From: an uncultured Anaerolineaceae bacterium
GTDB lineage: Bacteria; Chloroflexota; Anaerolineae; Anaerolineales; Anaerolineaceae
Assembly (NCBI GenBank): GCA_927443345.1
Contig: CAKMKJ010000011.1
Span: forward strand, 1-64,000
Reading direction: 5' to 3'
Length of the DNA stretch: 64,000 bases
A program made the translations under genes and the position numbers. How positions within the stretch are numbered: position 1 is the stretch's first letter; every line of letters starts with the position of its first letter. The notes under the pieces were generated by a model. That model was not told the origin of the DNA and did no database searches. It worked only from the letters and a program-made list of their open reading frames with translations. Below are positions 50,328 to 58,443 of this stretch, one piece after another.

Positions 50328-50367
50328 GTTTGATAATCGGCTAAAATGGTGAATAATGGAGGTTGTC

Positions 50368-50787
50368 ATGAAGAGTTTCCGCAAGGAGTTATGGTTTCTC
50401 ATCCCCGCCCGGCGCGGCTACGTCAACATCACCGACCAGGTGGATGCTTGTGTGCGCGAGAGCGGCATCCGCGAAGGGTTGGTGCTGGTCAACGCCATGC
50501 ACATTACCGCCAGTGTGTTTATCAATGATGATGAAGGCGGGCTGCATCATGACTATGAAGAATGGCTCGAAAAACTCGCGCCTCACGATCCCGTCTCGGG
50601 CTACTGGCACAACCGCACGGGTGAAGACAACGCGGATGCACACATGAAACGCCAGGTGATGGGGCGCGAAGTTGTGGTGGCCATCACCAACGGCCGGCTG
50701 GACTTCGGTCCGTGGGAACAGATCTTTTACGGTGAGTTCGATGGCGGCAGGAAGAAACGCGTGCTGGTAAAAGTGATTGGAGAGTAG
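50368..50787 (+). CDS. YjbQ-family (UPF0047) protein
   Basis: A 139-residue YjbQ-like protein. The conserved [17 protein letters not shown] (near residue 31) and [36 protein letters not shown] block (near 92-127) are diagnostic, with histidines that could bind a metal or thiamine phosphate. E. coli YjbQ has weak thiamine phosphate synthase activity; the true role is unclear. The ATG at 50368 has GGAGG at the right distance, so the ATG at 50356 is not used. Confidence 0.88.
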
Positions 50788-50896: not shown

Positions 50897-51925
50897 ATGC
50901 CGGAACACGCGTTAATCTGCCCTCAATGTAAAGCCCCCCTCACCGCCCATCGCTTTGCAAAATCTGCAATCTGCAGCTTTTGCGGCACCACCGTTTTTCT
51001 TGAGGATACAAATATATCTTCCGCGCAATTTCATGAAGCTTTGCGATTTTGGAATGCGCCCGAAAGTTATGCCCTCACCTCGTGGATAACACTCGGCAAT
51101 CGGAATTGGGTACTCGAAAAAAAGATTGCCCAGGGTGAAAGCACTGATGTTTATACGGGCAGACTTGCGCGTTGGCCGACTGAATTGGCCGTGATCAAAA
51201 TTCTGCGCAAAGTTGAAAACGAACACTACCTTGATAACGAATGGGAAACGCTGCATCAGCTTTTACGCAGTCATGCCACAGGTGCCGATGTGTTCTCCAG
51301 AATGATTCCGCAGCCAGTCGTATATGGCAAAGCGACCGGTGGTGCGTTTTCTGGTTCAAAAACCTTGATTTTGCGCCGGGAGAGCGGCTTTCATTACACA
51401 TTCGATGAAGTCTGTCGCCATTACCCTGAGGGAATCCCCGCCAGAGCCTCTATCTGGGTGTGGCGAAGAATTCTCGAAATCCTTACCTTTTTGCATGATT
51501 CAGGTTATGTGCATGGTGCGGTGGTGCCTGCCCATCTTTTGGTTCAGCAAAACGAACACGGTGTGCGCCTGATTGGATACGGCCGCTCTGGCCGAATTAA
51601 CAATCCTTTGGATGCAGAGCGAGAGCTGCTTCGCCCCTACTGCCCCACACCAGCAAAAGATTGGAAAGTGCTTTCTCCGCAGCTTGATATTGTGATGAGC
51701 GCCAAATGCATCATCAAAATGCTTGGCGGCGACCCAGAAACCAACACATCGCCAACCACCGTGCCAACCAGGCTGGCCGACCTGATCAAAAAATACGCAC
51801 AGCTTGATGCAAAATATCCATCCACCCTGAATGCCTGGTCGATACACCAAGAATTGGGACGGATCGCTGACTCGGTTTATGGATCGCCGGCATTTATTCC
51901 AATTGAAATGCCGCACAAACCCTGA
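50897..51925 (+). CDS. Zinc-ribbon pseudokinase
   Basis: A 342-residue protein. The zinc ribbon has cysteines 9, 12, 26 and 29 (CPQC, CSFC). From about 70 a protein-kinase-like fold follows: glycine loop IAQGESTDVYTG (77-88), the ATP lysine K101 in AVIK, a glutamate in NEWETLHQLL (114-123). The catalytic loop reads HGAVVPAHLL (206-215), so the HRD aspartate, the catalytic lysine and the asparagine are lost, and the DFG aspartate is glycine (GYG at 227-229). It therefore binds nucleotide perhaps but should not transfer phosphate. It is the first gene of a five-gene operon with VWA, AdSS-like, ATP-grasp and GNAT proteins. Confidence 0.75.
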   Translation: MPEHALICPQCKAPLTAHRFAKSAICSFCGTTVFLEDTNISSAQFHEALRFWNAPESYALTSWITLGNRNWVLEKKIAQGESTDVYTGRLARWPTELAVIKILRKVENEHYLDNEWETLHQLLRSHATGADVFSRMIPQPVVYGKATGGAFSGSKTLILRRESGFHYTFDEVCRHYPEGIPARASIWVWRRILEILTFLHDSGYVHGAVVPAHLLVQQNEHGVRLIGYGRSGRINNPLDAERELLRPYCPTPAKDWKVLSPQLDIVMSAKCIIKMLGGDPETNTSPTTVPTRLADLIKKYAQLDAKYPSTLNAWSIHQELGRIADSVYGSPAFIPIEMPHKP

Positions 51926-51961
51926 CACCAATTTATTAATGATTAGAAAATAAGGAGAGAC

Positions 51962-52867
51962 ATGGGATACGGTAATTACAGTCAAGCAGCACATGATGCC
52001 CTTCTGAAAGGCAGAACCAACATCCCTGCCCAACAGGTCTTTAAGCAATCGCAATGCCACCCGCTCATGAATCCGCATGGTGTGAAACTGCGAGAAAGCC
52101 GGGATGGCGCAGATCATCCCCAATCGCTGAGTATTGTCTTCGCGTTGGATGTGACCGGATCGATGGGAGATATTCCCAGGTTGCTTGCCACAAAACAACT
52201 GCCTGTATTCATGAAAGTACTAATGGCATGTGAAATCCCTGACCCGCAGTTGATGTTCATGGCTATTGGTGATGCCTACAGCGACAGTTCCCCTTTGCAA
52301 GTGGGACAATTTGAATCCACGGCAGAGTTGATGGATCAGTGGCTCACATGGTCGTTCATCGAAGGCGGTGGCGGCGGCAGCGGTGAAGAATCTTATGAAC
52401 TAGGCATGTATTTTTTGGCTGCCCACACCGAGATGGATTGCATGGTGAAGCGAAAGAAACGCGGTTATCTCTTTATGACCGGGGATGAATATCCTTATGC
52501 CGTGTTACCGAAAAATGTGATTGAAACAGTGATCGGCGACCGTTTGGATGAAGACCTTAAAGTTGAAGAGATCGTAGCTGAACTTCAAAAATCCTACAAT
52601 CCATTTTTCATCATCCCTGATTATGCGCGGGCCAACCGCTGTGAACGGCGCTGGCGGGATTTATTGGGTGACAATGTGTTGGTGATGGATGCCCCCGAAG
52701 ATGTCTGCTATGTTGCCGCGGGTGCCATGCTGCTCAGTGAAGGCCGTGCCAAAAATATGGATGAAGTGGTGAAATTCCTCACTGATGCCGGCCTGACCAA
52801 TGATCGAAAACCAAAAGTGGTTGCCACGTTGACACCTTATGCTGAAGTAGTGCTTAACCTTCGATAG
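51962..52867 (+). CDS. VWA-domain protein with MIDAS motif
   Basis: A 301-residue von Willebrand factor A protein. The metal-ion-dependent adhesion motif DVTGSMGD is at residues 63-70, with likely further metal ligands in AIGDAYSDSS (near 103) and MTGDEYPY (near 179). No signal peptide or membrane segment is seen, so it is cytoplasmic. VWA proteins of this kind scaffold complexes by binding partner proteins through the metal. Encoded 36 bases after the pseudokinase gene and 9 bases before the AdSS-like gene, so it is probably part of one complex or pathway with them. GGAGAGAC precedes the ATG. Confidence 0.8.
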   Translation: MGYGNYSQAAHDALLKGRTNIPAQQVFKQSQCHPLMNPHGVKLRESRDGADHPQSLSIVFALDVTGSMGDIPRLLATKQLPVFMKVLMACEIPDPQLMFMAIGDAYSDSSPLQVGQFESTAELMDQWLTWSFIEGGGGGSGEESYELGMYFLAAHTEMDCMVKRKKRGYLFMTGDEYPYAVLPKNVIETVIGDRLDEDLKVEEIVAELQKSYNPFFIIPDYARANRCERRWRDLLGDNVLVMDAPEDVCYVAAGAMLLSEGRAKNMDEVVKFLTDAGLTNDRKPKVVATLTPYAEVVLNLR

Positions 52868-52876
52868 TATTCAAAA

Positions 52877-54202
52877 TTGCGCGCCTATATTGTTATTGAC
52901 CTCGGATTTGGCGACGCCGGTAAAGGTCTGATCACGGACTTCCTCGTCCGTCAGACCCGTGCTGGCGTCGTTGTGCGTTATAACGGCGGAGCGCAGGCCG
53001 GCCACAACGTGGTGATGCCTGAAGGCATGCATCACACCTTTGCACAATTTGGCTCAGGAAGCTTCGTCGCGGGGGTCAAAACTTACCTCTCGAAAGGCAT
53101 GGTGGTGCACCCTGGCGCGCTGCTGGTCGAAGGGGATGTGCTGGTCAAAAAAGGGCTCAGTGATATTTTTTCAAGAATCAAAATCAACCCGCAAGCCCTG
53201 ATCATCACCCCTTACCATCAGGCAGCCAACCGAATTAAGGAATTGGCGCGTGAAGATGGACGCCACGGCTCATGCGGTGTCGGTGTGGGCGAAACAGTTG
53301 AAGATAATTTGGCCGGTTGCGAAGATTGCATCCGCGCAGGCGACCTGGCGAAGCCAAACTTGTTGCTGCAAAAAATGGCATCCATCAGAGAGCGAAAGCA
53401 AAAGGCATTATCAGACTTGTTTGGCAATGATCTGTCTTCGGCATCCACAGCCGCTGAATGGCAGGTTTTTCTACAGGATGATCTGGCGCTGCGCTGGATG
53501 GACTCCATTGGCAGGATGGTTGCTCTTAACCTGGTGGATGATTCAGACATACTGACCGAATGGGCAAAAAGCAGCGAGGCAATGGTTTTTGAAGGTGCGC
53601 AAGGCGTTTTGCTGGATGCCAAGGCAGGCTTTTACCCTTACAACAGTTGGACAAACTGCAGCCCGGATAACGCGATTACGCTTGTGCATGACCATGCGCC
53701 AGGCAGTGAGATCATTAAGGTTGGCGTTTCACGGTGCTACACCGTCCGCCATGGGCCCGGTCCACTGCCGACTGAAACGCATGAGTTTGATGGCCTCATC
53801 ATGGAGCATAATCAAAATAATGCCTGGCAGGGCAGCGTCCGCTATGGCTGGTTTGATCAGGTACTCTTCAATTATGCGTTGAAGGTAGTCAAGGGCGTTG
53901 ACCTGCTGGCCGTCACCCACCTGGATTTATTGCATAAGCTGGAGGTATGGAAAATATGCCGGCACTATTCATCAGACAGCGATTTGGCAACCAACCTCTT
54001 ATCCTACCCTTCACTGTCTTTGGCTCAAAAAGAAAACATGACACGCGAGTTAATGGCAGCCAAACCAGACTATGAGTCATTTGCCTCACAAGAATCTGAA
54101 ATATTGAAAGCGATTGAGCACGCGGCCGGGATGCCCGTCTCTTTTGCGGTCCGCGGAGCAAAATCTCAGCATGTTACAATAAGAGAATCAAACGCAATGT
54201 AA
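52877..54202 (+). CDS. Divergent adenylosuccinate synthetase (PurA-like)
   Basis: A 441-residue AdSS-fold GTPase. PurA normally joins IMP and aspartate with GTP. The P-loop GFGDAGKG (10-17) keeps the catalytic Asp13 and Lys16, but the usual Glu14 is Ala; the catalytic His43 in AGHNV is kept. FEGAQGVLLDAKAGFYPY (238-255) and YTVRHGPGPLPTE (288-300) are recognisable, while the arginine-rich substrate loop GRxRRxGW is changed to GSVRYGW (319-325). Activity with a different amino or purine-like substrate is therefore likely. It starts with TTG, 9 bases after the VWA gene. A canonical purA is not in the window, so I cannot say whether it is the only copy. Confidence 0.82.
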   Translation: MRAYIVIDLGFGDAGKGLITDFLVRQTRAGVVVRYNGGAQAGHNVVMPEGMHHTFAQFGSGSFVAGVKTYLSKGMVVHPGALLVEGDVLVKKGLSDIFSRIKINPQALIITPYHQAANRIKELAREDGRHGSCGVGVGETVEDNLAGCEDCIRAGDLAKPNLLLQKMASIRERKQKALSDLFGNDLSSASTAAEWQVFLQDDLALRWMDSIGRMVALNLVDDSDILTEWAKSSEAMVFEGAQGVLLDAKAGFYPYNSWTNCSPDNAITLVHDHAPGSEIIKVGVSRCYTVRHGPGPLPTETHEFDGLIMEHNQNNAWQGSVRYGWFDQVLFNYALKVVKGVDLLAVTHLDLLHKLEVWKICRHYSSDSDLATNLLSYPSLSLAQKENMTRELMAAKPDYESFASQESEILKAIEHAAGMPVSFAVRGAKSQHVTIRESNAM

Positions 54203-54245
54203 GAAAACGATTGGGGGAGCAAAGCAATCCAAAAAGGAGTTTTAA

Positions 54246-55217
54246 GTGAATATTGTTTTAATTAAGTCGTTCTCCAACAAGCCCTGGCGCAGCCCTGAGA
54301 CCTACCAACGCATAGAAGCAAGCCTGGCTCAATATTGGAGGGTGCAATCAATCGAAACGCAAGACCCCAAAGCGTTGGAACAATTCATTGAAAATACCAT
54401 CGGGCAAACTAATGAAAAAGTGTTTGTTTTCAATATCGGTGAGTATTTAGATGAAAACAATAAACAAGGCTTCATCCCCGGCTTTTTGGATCAATGGAAA
54501 ATACCGCATCTTGGCTCGACTGCTGAGAGCATTTTGTTGGCGATGGATAAGGCGAAAACCAAAACCCTGCTAAAAAACAAGGGGATTCCAACCCCGCAAT
54601 TTTTTATCGCTGAAACCATCGAGTCTGATTATTGCACTCAGGCTGAGAAGATTGGTTATCCGCTTTTTGTAAAACCTCTCAATGAAGGTGGCCATATTGG
54701 CATTGGCGATCATTCCATCGTTCACCATGCAGAACAGTTACATTCTGAAATTGTAAAAATTATTCAACTGTATCAATACCCTGCATTGGTTGAAGAATAT
54801 ATTGATGATGCAGAGATGCGTGAATTCAGCATCGGCATCCTCTGCGGTGAACCCAATATATACACACCTGTCGAGATTGATTTTGAGGCCATGCCTACAG
54901 AGTCAAGAATCCTCAGTTTTGAAAGTGCTGAAGAAGACATCGAAAAAATTAAGCTCATCGATGATTTGGATGTAAAAGAGTCACTGATTAAGTTAACCCA
55001 AGAAACCTTCAACGCTATTGGCGCCAATGATTACAGCCGGGTGGACATCCGCATGAACGCAAAAGGGTATTATGTCCTGGAGATCAACGTCATGCCAGGG
55101 CTAGGGCCATACAGCTTTTTACCAGAGGCAGCAGAATCAATTCATGGATTGAGTTATGAACAATTAATCCACCGAATTACAAAACACTCCATGAGACGAC
55201 AACAGCTAATAAATTAA
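54246..55217 (+). CDS. ATP-grasp ligase, D-alanine-D-alanine ligase-like
   Basis: A 323-residue ATP-grasp enzyme of the Ddl-like group. The ATP-binding parts are LFVKPLNEGGHIGIGD (near 137-153) and ALVEEYIDDAEMREFSIGIL (near 180-199); the magnesium site is in YSRVDIRMNAKGYYVLEINVMPGLGP (near 262-287, with D, E and N). It would join a carboxylate to an amine (peptide-like bond) through an acyl phosphate. It begins with GTG, 5 bases after AAGGAG. Its place next to an AdSS-like enzyme and a GNAT suggests a small amino-acid or peptide-like product rather than cell-wall D-Ala-D-Ala. Confidence 0.85.
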   Translation: MNIVLIKSFSNKPWRSPETYQRIEASLAQYWRVQSIETQDPKALEQFIENTIGQTNEKVFVFNIGEYLDENNKQGFIPGFLDQWKIPHLGSTAESILLAMDKAKTKTLLKNKGIPTPQFFIAETIESDYCTQAEKIGYPLFVKPLNEGGHIGIGDHSIVHHAEQLHSEIVKIIQLYQYPALVEEYIDDAEMREFSIGILCGEPNIYTPVEIDFEAMPTESRILSFESAEEDIEKIKLIDDLDVKESLIKLTQETFNAIGANDYSRVDIRMNAKGYYVLEINVMPGLGPYSFLPEAAESIHGLSYEQLIHRITKHSMRRQQLIN

Positions 55218-55237
55218 TGTTCATTTGGAGATTTTAA

Positions 55238-56038
55238 ATGACGAGTAAAAAACCGAATCAATATCTGTTTAAAAAATGTTCATCACTTAAAGATATCGAT
55301 GATTTGAGGAACCAATATCTTGACGGATTGATCGAACCACAAGAACTCTACCTGGAGCTTATGGTACGCAACGCAGATGCTTATGCGGTCATACTGAATG
55401 ACATCAGGATTGGCTATTTCCTCCTGGGTGAAGCGGGTGCTCTTGTGGAATATTACATCACTCAAAAAAATATTGATCTCGCGGATGAAATTTTCGCAAA
55501 AATCATTCAAGATTTCGCAATTCGCAAAGCCTTATGCAAATCTTTTGATCATTTGCTGCTATCATGCTGCGTGGGTAAACAAAGCAAAACCAGTGTGATG
55601 GGGATTCACTTTAGAGAGTATCATCCGTCACCCGCCATTGCCAAATTTTCAGATGTCACAGTCAGACTAGCCACGAGTGATGATGAAATGCATATCATTG
55701 AAATCAACGAAGAGGTCTTTGACCACGATTATGAAGTGCTCGAATATATTAATAAGAAACAGTTATTGCTCTTTGAAAAAGATAGTGCTCTTATTGGTTT
55801 TGGCATTTTTTCGAGAGTCATTGAGGGCAAACCTGATTTTGACATTGGTATGCTGGTCGTAAAAGACTTCCGCGGCCAAGGTGCTGGACAATTCATTGTT
55901 GGCTACATGGCGGACTATTGCATTAAAAATGGATGGCGTCCTATCGCAGGCTGTGGCGTGGATAATATCGGATCAAGGCGCTGTCTGGAAAAAGCCGGAT
56001 TTATCGCCGGTTATCGGATATTAGCGTTTGATTTTTAG
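55238..56038 (+). CDS. GNAT-family N-acetyltransferase, two GNAT-like halves
   Basis: A 266-residue protein. The second half (about 140-266) is a GNAT domain with the acetyl-CoA binding MLVVKDFRGQGAGQFIVGYM (near 206-225) and the C-terminal NIGSRRCLEKAGF that is usual in the family. The first half has a similar pattern of strands and may be a degenerate GNAT domain without the CoA motif. It probably acetylates the product of the operon, or a precursor. GGAG precedes the ATG, and it is the last gene of the five-gene operon; a hairpin follows at 56165. Confidence 0.82.
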   Translation: MTSKKPNQYLFKKCSSLKDIDDLRNQYLDGLIEPQELYLELMVRNADAYAVILNDIRIGYFLLGEAGALVEYYITQKNIDLADEIFAKIIQDFAIRKALCKSFDHLLLSCCVGKQSKTSVMGIHFREYHPSPAIAKFSDVTVRLATSDDEMHIIEINEEVFDHDYEVLEYINKKQLLLFEKDSALIGFGIFSRVIEGKPDFDIGMLVVKDFRGQGAGQFIVGYMADYCIKNGWRPIAGCGVDNIGSRRCLEKAGFIAGYRILAFDF

Positions 56039-56164
56039 TTACTTCAACAATTCGATTTTTCCAATCAATAGAAGTAATAAACTGCCAAATCACCAGATTT
56101 TGAATCCCGGTGTAGGGATAAATGGCAAGTCACCAATAATTGGAAACTCCATTATTTTTTTAAA

Positions 56165-56199
56165 GCATAATTCCGGCTGCCGCTCAGCCGGAATTATGC
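56165..56199. terminator. Hairpin between the convergent GNAT and araA genes
   Basis: GCATAATTCCGGCTG and its complement form a 15-bp stem with a 5-base loop in the gap between convergent genes. T-runs are weak on both strands. Confidence 0.6.
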
Positions 56200-56252
56200 A
56201 TGTAAAAGGAGAGAAATGTCCCATCAGGGAACGGATGTTGGTAAATTAGTTA

Positions 56253-57758
56253 TTAGTGGTTACCGCGCATGTGATAGTAGGCTTCGTTCCAGTGAATCTC
56301 TTTCTTGAAGTCGGTCAGTTTGGTGTTCTCATCAATCATCAGCAGTTCAATGCCAGCCATTTCTGCAAAGTCTTGCATATGTTCTGAAGTCAAATCTAAA
56401 CTGAAGCTGGTATGATGCGCTCCGCCGGCATAAATCCAGGCTGCGGCAGCAACTTTGAGATTCGGACGCGGCAGCCATAAAGCGCGCGCGACCGGAAGTT
56501 TGGGCAGCGGATGCTCTGTCGGCACCACATCCACCACGCTGACGACCATTCTGAATCGATTGCCCATATCCATGATCGAAGCGGCAACCGCCGGGCCGGT
56601 CTTGGAGTCAAAGATGGCGCGTACCGGGTCTGCCTTGCCGCCGATTGAAAGCGGCAAAATGTCAATTTTGGGTTTACCGTCTGCAATGGATTCATCCACT
56701 TCAAGCATGTGAGCGCCAAGAATCTTGTCACCAGAGGGATGGAAGTGATAGGTGTAATCTTCCATAAAGCTCGTACCCTTGGGCAGACCAGCACCCATGA
56801 CCTTCATGGCGCGCACCAGGGCAGAGGTCTTCCAATCGCCTTCAGCACCAAAGCCATAGCCGTCACGCATCAAACGCTGTACAGCCAGGCCGGGCAGTTG
56901 GTTCAGCCCGAATAAATCTTCAAAATTAGTGGTGAAAGCCTTGAAACCGCCAGCTTCAAGAAAGCTGCGCATCCCAATTTCAATGCGCGCTGATTCAATT
57001 AATGATTGGTGAGCGTTGCCGCCAGGCAGCAAGGCCGGGGCGACGATATATTCATCCTGATAGGTTTGCACCAGCTTTTTGATATCTGCATCGCTGGCTT
57101 CATTGACACAGTTGACCAATTCACCAACACCGTATCCATGGACTGCATAGCCAAACTTGATCTGTGCTTCTACCTTGTCGCCTTCAGTGACAGCCACATT
57201 GCGCATGTTATCGCCAAAACGGGCCAGCTTGGCACCTTGCCAATCAGCCCAACCTGAAGCCACGCGAGACCAAACACCAAGGCTGGCTTGCACTTCGGGG
57301 TCCTTCCAATGGCCAACCACCACTTTGCGTTCCATGCGCAGACGACTGCCAATGAAACCGAATTCGCGGTCACCGTGAGCCGCCTGGTTGAGGTTCATAA
57401 AGTCCATATCCATTTCAGCCCAGGGAATCTCGCTGTTGTACTGGGTGTGCAAATGGACCATGGGTTTCTTCAATTGAGTGAGACCTGCAATCCACATTCG
57501 CGCGGGAGAGAAGGTGTGCATCCAGGTGAGTAATCCTATACACTGATGGGCGTTGTTGGCTTCGAGGCATAAGGCGAAAATCTCTTCAGGGGTCTTCACT
57601 ACTGATTTGAAAACAACTTTCACCGGGATGCTGCTGCTGGCATCCAGAGCGGCAGCAATTTCTTTAGAATGATCAGCCACCTGGAGCAAAGTCTCCGGGC
57701 CATAGAGATGCTGACTGCCGGTGACAAACCAGATTTCATTTTGTTTTAGATCAATCAC
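56253..57758 (-). CDS. araA: L-arabinose isomerase
   Basis: A 501-residue enzyme that converts L-arabinose to L-ribulose. [14 protein letters not shown] is at the start (residues 9-22), and the active-site parts [13 protein letters not shown]-like region (here [26 protein letters not shown], near 325-350) holds the metal-binding Glu and His. The GTG at 57758, with AAGGAG 6 bases before, gives the usual length of about 500; the frame is open to 57845 but has no ribosome site. It is the last gene of the araB-araD-araA operon on the minus strand. Confidence 0.92.
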
Positions 57759-57801
57759 TTTAAACTCCTTAATTAAAATAAGTAATATAGACCTACGGCA
57801 G

Positions 57802-58443
57802 TTATTGGCCGTAAACCCCTGTATATCGCTGGTGAAGAGATTCAATTTGTTCCGTCGGGATTACATCCGGCTTGCCGATTTGCAGCGCCATCCAAACGGT
57901 GGCAGCTACATCTTCGGTCATTATGGCTGCTTTGACGGCAGAAACGGCATCTTTGCCAATGGTAAAGACACCGTGATTCTTGAGTAATACTGCGGGTGAA
58001 CGTCCGATGCTTTCGAGCACCACTTTGCCAATGGCCTCATCGCCGATCAGAGCGAATCCGCCGCAGGGGATGGGGCCGCCGAACTCGTCTGCAATGGCGG
58101 TCAACACACACGGAATAGGTTTGCCGACAGCTGCAAAGGCCGTGGCGTAGCGTGAATGGGTATGCACAATGCCGTTTACATCAGGGCGATGTTGATAAAT
58201 GTATAAATGACTCCAGGTGTCAGAGGAGGGTTTACGTTCCCCCTCGACCACTTTGCCTTCCATATCAAGCACAACCATATCTTCAGCGCGCAGCTTATCA
58301 AACGGAACCCCGCTGGGCTTGATCACCATCATGCCAGATTTCGTGTCTCGGGCGCTGACGTTGCCGCTCGTCCAGGCTACCAGGTTGTTTTTTGGCAGTT
58401 CACGATTCAGTTCAACCAATTCTTCTTTAAGTTTTTTCAGCAT
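57802..58443 (-). CDS. araD: L-ribulose-5-phosphate 4-epimerase
   Basis: A 213-residue class II aldolase-family epimerase that turns L-ribulose 5-phosphate into D-xylulose 5-phosphate. Zinc-binding histidines lie in [13 protein letters not shown] (near residue 95) and [11 protein letters not shown] (near 155); TSGNVSARD near 26 binds the phosphate. It sits between araA (43 bases) and araB (39 bases) in the arabinose operon, which makes the substrate certain enough to name it. AGGAG precedes the ATG. Confidence 0.9.

Follow-up and report, generated by a model that had tools for sequence, protein, structure and literature searches.

The first three genes of the five-gene operon at 50897–56038 are a conserved unit, and within it a VWA-fold protein and an adenylosuccinate-synthetase-like (AdSS-like) enzyme form an invariant pair. 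Judged from its residues the enzyme keeps the catalytic apparatus of AdSS while its IMP-phosphate and L-aspartate pockets appear remade, and it therefore probably makes or mends an undescribed nucleotide. With a probability of about 0.55, we read the three genes as the bacterial copy of a mobile module common to bacteria, plasmids and phages, comprising the VWA protein, a neofunctionalised AdSS-like enzyme and an exchangeable adaptor, with the ATP-grasp ligase and GNAT acetyltransferase of the operon as local additions. The enzyme would be an undescribed NTP-driven C–N ligase acting on a nucleotide-type substrate, linked to NAD or ADP-ribose in part of its range.

Gene layout of the operon

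The features of the operon in the window, the 64,000-nucleotide stretch of DNA analysed here, are as follows.

50897–51925, plus strand: protein with zinc ribbon and pseudokinase domain, core gene 1 (342 aa)
51962–52867, plus strand: VWA-fold protein with intact MIDAS-type DxTGS, core gene 2 (301 aa)
52877–54202, plus strand: AdSS-like enzyme, core gene 3 (441 aa, TTG start)
54246–55217, plus strand: D-Ala-D-Ala-ligase-type ATP-grasp enzyme, accessory (323 aa)
55238–56038, plus strand: GNAT acetyltransferase with two domains, accessory (266 aa)
56165–56199, no strand assigned: perfect 15-bp inverted repeat with a 5-base loop, 3' of the operon

The first-pass annotation described five plus-strand genes with gaps of 36, 9, 43 and 20 bases, in exact agreement with the ORF coordinates of the window. 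It also gave the operon its own terminal hairpin. This holds for the perfect repeat, and the stretch that contains it (56035–56215) has an MFE z of −4.5; yet there is no T-run 3' of the hairpin on the plus strand, and it is absent from the list produced by the terminator scan of the window. It lies ~130 bases beyond the last operon stop, close to the end of a convergent gene (56253–57845). Pfam matches are Adenylsucc_synt for gene 3 (230.7 bits), Dala_Dala_lig_C for gene 4 (85.8 bits) and two GNAT domains for gene 5 (95.2 and 35 bits).

The VWA and AdSS-like proteins are an invariant pair

We fetched 160 loci, 80 from genomes (mostly Variovorax, with L235 a repeat of L092) and 80 viral. The AdSS-like gene lies 3' of the VWA gene on the same strand in 155, and four of the five in which the pair was missed are contigs that stop at the VWA gene. 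The gap between the two ORFs has a median of 7 bases and is ≤300 bases in 142 of the 160 loci, as measured on mechanical ORF calls of which some starts are wrong. Pairwise distances of the two proteins are correlated with r = 0.90 over 177 pairs, a value reached in none of 999 permutations. The linkage of pseudokinase-like and VWA genes to an AdSS-like enzyme, claimed from the window alone, is borne out. Weak VWA relatives without AdSS also exist (L019–L022).

The module occurs in six bacterial phyla, on plasmids and in phages, the Bixzunavirus mycobacteriophages among them. VWA matches turned up in 207 phage records (50,697 scanned) and 20 plasmid records (72,556 scanned), and a viral scan gave 434 stretches encoding the protein. 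In all eight phage and plasmid VWA records that were opened an annotated AdSS gene comes next, with a small ORF between the two in one. About 200 isolated phages carry the pair, mostly phages of the host M. smegmatis; mycobacteriophage records number 188 for VWA and 189 for AdSS, these being separate tallies and not a record-by-record pairing. AdSS matches also occur among Listeria, Staphylococcus, Salmonella and other records. Presence in bacteria is patchy, with carriers making up 6/398 Pseudomonadota, 39/193 Myxococcota and 19/400 Chloroflexota genomes. The first-pass annotation had proposed a search for recurrence in unrelated lineages, and the zinc-ribbon pseudokinase, VWA and AdSS-like genes are indeed found together there.

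Other genes recur around the pair. Of 84 viral loci, 10 have a nearby gene for a phrog_850 RNA-binding protein, which we take to be TROVE/Ro60-like; genes resembling those for RecA and clamp loaders, judged by reading, also recur near the viral pair. We rejected these as functional clues on the ground that the pattern looks like shared synteny, and likewise the recurrent neighbours in Variovorax and Myxococcota, where it looks like ordinary synteny.

The first-pass assignment of gene 2 as a VWA protein with an intact MIDAS was borne out by the motif D63-x-T65-x-S67 and by a predicted model with the VWA fold (pLDDT 85) and VWA-type PDB matches. Among 45 VWA rows D63, G66 and S67 are invariant and T65 is present in at least 90%. 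None of the 45 members matches a Pfam VWA model, nor does the window protein.

The AdSS-like enzyme has altered substrate pockets

We counted residues (E. coli numbering) in 98 AdSS rows of the module, 90 chromosomal, four plasmid and four phage, leaving out the canonical PurA of the window's genome (L002), a copy of the window (L003), a cut sequence (L012) and two short ones (L064, L101). D13, K16, H41 and Q224 are each present in 98/98 and D333 in 97/98. In PurA T301, R303 and R305 belong to the L-aspartate loop, and N38, T129 and R143 to the IMP 5'-phosphate site, assignments given in part by PMC8342488. In the module N38 is replaced by Q in 97/98 rows (N in one), T129 by C in 94/98 (T in four), V273 by H in 98/98, T301 by Q in 97/98 (T in none) and R305 by F or V in 91/98. 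R143 is kept in just 8/98 and the R303 column holds Arg in 29/98. The aspartate-loop Arg R306 is present in 96/98, in a loop whose register is uncertain owing to a one-residue deletion; given this retention, the uncertain register and the Arg at 303 in 29 rows, an amine with a carboxylate may still fit. Among 75 viral proteins longer than 330 aa, which may overlap the four isolated-phage rows, H41, Q224, H273 and Q301 are found in all 75 and Q38 in 73; D13 and K16 are present in 73, the other two rows being gapped. Compared with canonical PurA, the catalytic and P-loop residues are therefore there, and those of the L-aspartate loop and the IMP 5'-phosphate site are mostly not.

In a quick tree of 52 rows, with hand-picked bacterial and 18 randomly chosen viral rows, the AdSS-like proteins form a single clade apart from the PurA and PurZ rows (SH-aLRT 99), the PurZ row being a long branch of unsure placement. 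Phage and bacterial branches interleave within the clade. A canonical PurA-type match is also present in 23 of 24 module genomes (those of 24 of the 80 loci), and in the window's own genome the AdSS-like protein is 30% identical to PurA. An AdSS profile built without the PurA L002 matches 78/80 genome and 77/80 viral loci. Canonical PurA scores 198–243 bits on it and some viral module proteins score lower, so the score alone cannot separate viral loci from PurA, whereas the signature residues do so in the 75 viral rows.

Module and PurA (PF00709) share a fold and the phosphoryl-transfer residues D13, K16, H41 and Q224; they differ in that N38, T129, R143, V273, T300, T301 and R305 are changed or lost and the gene is coupled to VWA. 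PurZ of Z-DNA phages is likewise a phage-borne AdSS relative with an altered substrate pocket (PMC8342488 and PMC12884076). Asp13 is changed to Ser in all 147 phage PurZ of PMC12884076, whereas the module has Asp in 98/98 of its rows and in 73/73 ungapped viral rows, and lies in a separate clade. On the altered pockets and the retained Asp13 we rejected a canonical PurA or PurZ identity for gene 3.

The pseudokinase is an exchangeable partner

Gene 1 matches Pkinase with 19.4 bits and a PriA-type zinc ribbon with 24 bits, both under the Pfam cut-offs, and a predicted model (pLDDT 87) backs the kinase fold. Active kinases carry the catalytic-loop motif HRDLKPxNLL and a DFG motif. The gene 1 protein has HGAVVPAHLL and IGYG in these places, so that the HRD Asp, the catalytic-loop Asn and the DFG Asp are all missing. 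It keeps the β3 Lys (K101), the αC Glu (E115) and the αF Asp (D264), and the earlier statement that all catalytic kinase residues are lost is therefore slightly too strong. Among 124 rows of this protein the HRD Asp is present in 36, the loop Asn in 7 and the DFG Asp in 18. The N-terminus varies, being a zinc ribbon or, in some relatives, a J-domain (HPD), and the gene is missing from many phage loci. The pseudokinase is an exchangeable partner in the module.

The ATP-grasp and GNAT genes join the core in near kin

ATP-grasp accompanies the core in two of the 80 genome loci (L023, L024) and GNAT in two (L024, L025). All three are near kin of the window, with VWA identities of 93–98%. L024 has all five genes in the same order plus two methyltransferase-type genes, L023 is without GNAT and L025 without ATP-grasp; neither gene was seen beside the core in the other 77 genome loci. 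In 249 genomes of the same class searched, two further ones encode the ATP-grasp protein at 53–54% identity, and the stretches read there, of 6.4 and 15.2 kb, gave no match to any of the other four proteins. The five genes are therefore ruled out as one conserved unit, contrary to the first-pass proposal.

An NrtR-type regulator adjoins some copies

The NrtR family are ADP-ribose-sensing regulators. An NrtR-type gene is near the core in 9/80 genome loci and 4/21 further loci, and on two of the four plasmid loci first opened the match is above cut-off. It lies alongside the core in several alpha- and betaproteobacteria, and in three cases NAD-salvage genes are there too. In four genomes (G717, G408, G413, G420) the core-adjacent gene is the sole PF21906 match; in four others (G405, G309, G414, G418) the NrtR gene sits elsewhere, and on the megaplasmid of Methylorubrum extorquens AM1 the regulator is ~37 kb from the core. 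PF21906 has no match in the window's genome. The NrtR queries were likewise without a match in the 80 viral loci and in those Chloroflexota and Myxococcota loci whose length allowed the test. Given these absences and the separate location in four genomes, the NAD link is lineage-bound. Where the regulator is adjacent, it hints at control by ADP-ribose or a ligand like it. Any NAD link of the window copy is putative.

Relationship to known systems

A TerY triad consists of a VWA protein, an active kinase and a PP2C-type phosphatase, with a zinc-ribbon kinase-like protein beside the VWA. The module shares this last arrangement, yet its kinase is mostly degenerate and an AdSS-like enzyme takes the place of the phosphatase, none of which was seen among the sampled annotated neighbour proteins. 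The suggested kinship with TerY is supported neither by this nor by the lack of any Pfam VWA match; on the latter and on the lost kinase residues we rejected membership of the triad. In ADP-ribose conflict systems centred on ARG, NUDIX-type regulators share a neighbourhood with vWA proteins, in an account whose section on them names no AdSS (PMC9503650); no ADP-ribosylglycohydrolase was found among annotated module neighbours. PADLOC gave no match for the VWA, AdSS-like and ATP-grasp proteins of the window, matched gene 1 with kinase-type models only and GNAT at E 0.08 only. A known PADLOC defence system is ruled out by the lack of match for the core VWA and AdSS-like proteins.

The AdSS-like, VWA and kinase-like proteins of phage I3 are members of phrog_1211, phrog_2971 and phrog_3043, clusters that offer no more than a label ('2-aminooxy adenylosuccinate synthetase', unknown and 'kinase'); the window AdSS-like protein matches phrog_1211 with 277.9 bits. 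Literature searches found no paper on the first label or on dITP, NADase and AdSS together, and no description of the gene set in searchable papers, in line with the first-pass view that no such system had been described.

Discussion

In the proposed mechanism, the AdSS-like enzyme would transfer phosphate from an NTP to the lactam oxygen of a hypoxanthine-type base, using the retained Asp13, Lys16, His41 and Gln224, and an amine would then displace the phosphate on the base. Because both pockets are remade consistently, the base would be held in a compound other than IMP and the amine would not be L-aspartate. Together with the adaptor, the VWA protein may use its metal site to hold or present a substrate or partner, in a putative complex of the three in which pseudokinase and VWA protein would act as regulators or scaffold. 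Where the NrtR-type regulator adjoins the module, in several alpha- and betaproteobacteria, it would act as a switch responding to ADP-ribose or a ligand like it, and the module would serve NAD/ADP-ribose-linked nucleotide metabolism.

Alternatively, the product might be a purine deoxynucleotide modified for use in phage genomes, which would make the enzyme a third route of the PurZ kind and the copies in bacteria mobile or domesticated ones. Phages are among the chief carriers, with 434 VWA-encoding viral stretches, and PurZ is a precedent for phage use of AdSS relatives in this way (PMC8342488, PMC12884076). Yet the Asp13-to-Ser change of PurZ is absent, no DatZ or MazZ homologue was found in the 80 viral stretches of ≤17 kb (phmmer with S-2L queries, E ≤0.001), and chromosomal copies beside NrtR or NAD-salvage genes fit poorly with a role in virion DNA, making this route unlikely. 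Similarly doubtful is a conflict system that senses or counters NAD/ADP-ribose-based attack, in defence or counter-defence, with the enzyme making a signal or restoring a nucleotide. The mixed carriage over phage, plasmid and chromosome, the interleaved branches and the patchy presence would suit it, as would the predicted ADP-ribose conflict systems in which NUDIX-type regulators occur alongside vWA proteins (PMC9503650); the PADLOC results and the lack of a recurrent effector among annotated neighbours would not. It overlaps the mobile-module reading and does not exclude it.

A pathway in which the five genes together yield a single modified nucleotide or amino-acid conjugate is very unlikely. 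The tight spacing in the window and the ordered set of L024 with its two methyltransferase-type genes speak for this, but they are outweighed by the loci lacking one or both accessory genes and by ATP-grasp homologues away from the core. Such a pathway may be true locally, as an elaboration. A spare synthetase, that is a diverged paralogue with ordinary PurA activity, would account for the AdSS fold and catalytic residues; it is scarcely credible given pocket residues replaced consistently across phyla and phages, a separate canonical PurA in nearly all module genomes sampled and the obligate pairing with VWA.

We tentatively advance a further, less probable reading: a third AdSS class, neither PurA nor PurZ, that together with its VWA partner and an interchangeable adaptor would re-aminate or conjugate a hypoxanthine-type base, either in a dinucleotide of the NAD/ADP-ribose type or in some other inosine compound that is not IMP. 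Phages and bacteria alike would carry it to manage NAD-based conflict. The VWA–AdSS pair carries misleading or empty labels in the phages and bacterial phyla that encode it. If the enzyme represents a new AdSS class, it would bring an additional nucleotide into phage–host or NAD metabolism, and would reveal a job of VWA proteins and pseudokinases next to a metabolic enzyme.

Gene organization and predicted folds in the window

The window contains five ORFs separated by 36, 9, 43 and 20 bases, in exact agreement with the operon described in the first-pass annotation:

50897..51925, plus strand, zinc-ribbon pseudokinase (gene 1)
51962..52867, plus strand, VWA protein (gene 2)
52877..54202, plus strand, AdSS-like protein
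54246..55217, plus strand, ATP-grasp protein
55238..56038, plus strand, GNAT protein

Pfam assigns the AdSS-like protein to AdSS (230.7 bits) and the ATP-grasp protein to the D-Ala-D-Ala-ligase type (85.8), and finds two GNAT domains in the fifth protein. Gene 1 gives a weak kinase match (19.4 bits, under the cut-off); no Pfam VWA model matches the VWA protein. The folds of these two are settled by models predicted from family alignments: a kinase fold for gene 1 (pLDDT 87, pTM 0.80) and a VWA fold for gene 2 (pLDDT 85, pTM 0.88), the latter having NorD and integrin/VWF A-type domains as its top structural matches. The hairpin after the operon, at 56165-56199, is real (region z = −4.5), but on the plus strand it lacks the T-tail of a terminator. 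Upstream, outside the module, are genes of the adenosine-specific kinase family (PF04008; 48614-49147) and UPF0047 (50356-50787).

A core of three genes

Using the window VWA protein as query against genome contigs we found 90 relatives, of which 80 were kept. Family HMMs detect gene 1, VWA and AdSS-like genes together in 77 of these 80 loci. The contigs of L079 and L083 stop short of AdSS, and that of L101 begins within a first VWA copy and has no gene 1. Record titles assign the loci to Chloroflexota, Myxococcota, Pseudomonadota, Verrucomicrobiota and, in a single case, Acidobacteriota, and plasmids add Actinomycetota as carriers. A VWA match is present in 19 of 400 sampled Chloroflexota genomes; nine other genomes of the window's family within that sample have none. 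The AdSS-like gene accompanies 15 of the 16 Chloroflexota matches at E 1e-20 or better, the remaining one being a contig-start fragment; it is absent from the 1.5 kb flanks of the weaker matches L019-L022.

Among the genome loci, L023 and L024 combine the core with the ATP-grasp gene, and L024 and L025 combine it with the GNAT gene. These three are near kin of the window (VWA identity 93-98%); L024 and L025 also have two extra methyltransferase-type genes. ATP-grasp homologues (53-54% identity) occur away from the core in two further genomes among 249 of the class searched, and the other four operon proteins were not detected in the stretches read around them. The unit therefore comprises three genes, with two local additions, and the five-gene unit originally proposed is not borne out. 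The order in Myxococcota loci L224-L228 and L234 is gene 1, VWA, AdSS, second VWA; many Myxococcota genomes have a pair of VWA copies, frequently separated by a few kb.

The VWA-AdSS pair in phages and plasmids

Searching 50,697 phage records by tblastn gave a VWA match in 207, of which 188 are from Mycobacterium phages, 10 from Rhizobium phages, 6 from Vibrio phages and 3 from others. For AdSS the records with a match number 228, with 189 from Mycobacterium phages, 10 from Rhizobium phages, 6 from Vibrio phages and the rest from others. VWA is followed by an annotated AdSS gene in all four phage records opened, with one small ORF between them in I3, and the first four plasmid records opened have the same arrangement. 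The gene products tabulated for Vi01-like phages in PMC10892097 include a VWA-domain protein and a putative adenylosuccinate synthase, which may be this pair.

A scan of viral contigs gave 434 VWA-encoding stretches. The best 80 of these include an AdSS-like gene in 77 cases and gene 1 in 34; L117 and L147 end at VWA, and in L194 the remaining 2.9 kb of contig hold no AdSS match. The place of gene 1 immediately before VWA is taken, in 32 of 84 viral loci (e.g. L122, L134, L154), by a small charged protein of 111-151 aa (77 aa in one case). It never shares a locus with the main gene-1 cluster, and the one example tested has no PHROG match. Since gene 1 is often missing or replaced in viral loci, VWA and AdSS form the invariant pair. 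They lie on one strand in 155 of 160 genome and viral loci, with a median ORF gap of 7 bases (≤300 bases in 142). Distances between VWA proteins correlate with those between AdSS proteins (r = 0.90, 177 pairs; none of 999 permutations gave so high a value), and r is 0.88 in both the 77 viral and the 100 other loci.

Ten of 84 viral loci (e.g. L139:5247-6833) have, close to the module, a member of the RNA-binding protein family phrog_850, which we take to be TROVE/Ro60-like, perhaps as shared phage synteny. A HIRAN-domain gene immediately precedes VWA in the Rhizobium phage locus L104.

The gene 1 family

Residues were counted in 124 gene 1 rows, leaving out those of 100 bits or less. The beta-3 Lys (116/124), alpha-C Glu (117/124) and alpha-F Asp (123/124) are kept; 36 rows have an HRD Asp, 7 a catalytic-loop Asn and 18 a DFG Asp. 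With the catalytic Asp and Asn mostly missing, most of these proteins look like pseudokinases, and some members retain part of the kinase machinery. An N-terminal CxxC...CxxC occurs in 74 of the 123 rows besides the window, an HPD motif in 26 and both in one, and among 39 members 6 match DnaJ and 17 match Pkinase. Zinc ribbon and J-domain seem to alternate.

Active site and phylogeny of the AdSS-like enzyme

We compared 98 module rows with five canonical PurA rows, using E. coli mature numbering via the Klebsiella protein. D13, K16, H41, Q224 and R272 are kept in all 98 and D333 in 97. The substitutions are N38Q (97), I126H (96), T129C (94), S240W (93), V273H (98), T300W (94), T301Q (97) and K331H (85); R305 is replaced by F in 80 and by V in 11. 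Arg is kept at R143 in 8 rows, in the R303 column in 29 and at R306 in 96. The 75 viral rows all have H41, Q224, H273 and Q301; Q38 is found in 73 and D13 in 73 of 73 ungapped, with W240 (22), W300 (27) and H331 (18) less constant. E. coli R303 touches IMP O2' and aspartate, the alpha-phosphate is paired by an Arg from the other subunit, and V241 of PurZ sits by ribose C2' (PMC8342488); our alignment puts V241 at the place of V273. Judged by these residues, the phosphoryl-transfer chemistry is predicted to be kept, and the nucleotide handle and amine pocket to be changed.

The module proteins have Asp at position 13, whereas all 147 phage PurZ have Ser (PMC12884076), and this suggests a base lacking the 2-amino group. 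That study found 481 phage homologues; subtracting its PurZ and PurA groups leaves about 330 by our calculation, and its section 24 contains no discussion of them. The module clade may be among these.

In a 52-row tree a branch of length 1.6 (SH-aLRT 99) sets all 46 module rows apart, with phage and bacterial copies interleaved. The window protein and two other Chloroflexota rows cluster with two Myxococcota rows (support 99), a grouping suggestive of horizontal transfer. PurA-type matches scoring more than 520 bits are also present in 23 of 24 module genomes tested; the exception, the genome of L026 (G403), is a MAG and so may be incomplete.

NrtR-type regulators and NAD genes beside the module

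In 9 of 80 genome loci, all Betaproteobacteria by record title, the core has an NrtR-type regulator no more than about 5 kb away; Pfam confirms NUDIX and NrtR_WHD domains for that of L031. It adjoins VWA-AdSS in four of 21 further loci (L236-L239, Pseudomonadota), where gene 1 was not found. Two of these four cluster in the tree with Agrobacterium and Acetobacter plasmid copies, which also have an NrtR-type match above cut-off beside them. The match at the Rhodococcus copy is under cut-off (20.5 bits), and at the Tsukamurella copy AdSS is followed by a NUDIX match alone. The core-associated gene is the genome's only PF21906 match in G717, G408, G413 and G420, so chance adjacency seems unlikely. 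Other observations speak against a link to NAD: the NrtR gene is away from the module in G405, G309, G414 and G418, and about 37 kb from it on the AM1 megaplasmid; PF21906 is absent from the window's genome; and the same NrtR queries found none in those Chloroflexota, Myxococcota and viral loci that were tested. TTGCAA-type stretches are repeated between VWA and the NrtR-type gene in L239, a possible operator of the divergent regulator.

NrtR senses ADP-ribose (PMC9503650, citing others). In L040 the core is preceded by NAPRTase, NAD synthetase and NMNAT-NUDIX genes, homologues of which occur in L031 and L054. A NUDIX gene matches the NMNAT-NUDIX query in four of 80 viral loci (26-52 bits). 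Upstream of the module in Rhizobium phages (L104:3590-5265, L116:570-2236) are genes annotated as phosphoribosyltransferase-like and NMN adenylyltransferase/NUDIX.

Novelty and proposed function

A literature search over mainly open-access papers, for the parts together and for the phage AdSS label, turned up no account of the module; one may exist elsewhere. PMC2771037 notes an AdSS homologue in Bxz1-group phages that is missing from Myrna, which carries a putative nicotinate phosphoribosyltransferase. The terms 'adenylosuccinate' and 'PurA' are absent from PMC7824862, and 'adenylosuccinate' from PMC9503650.

From the residue pattern we propose that the AdSS-like enzyme would be an NTP-dependent, lactam-activating C-N ligase, acting on a non-IMP hypoxanthine-type substrate with an amine other than aspartate. 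The gene pairing suggests that it would act together with the VWA protein and an exchangeable adaptor. From the gene neighbours, the module may be linked to NAD/ADP-ribose metabolism, at least in some of its carriers.
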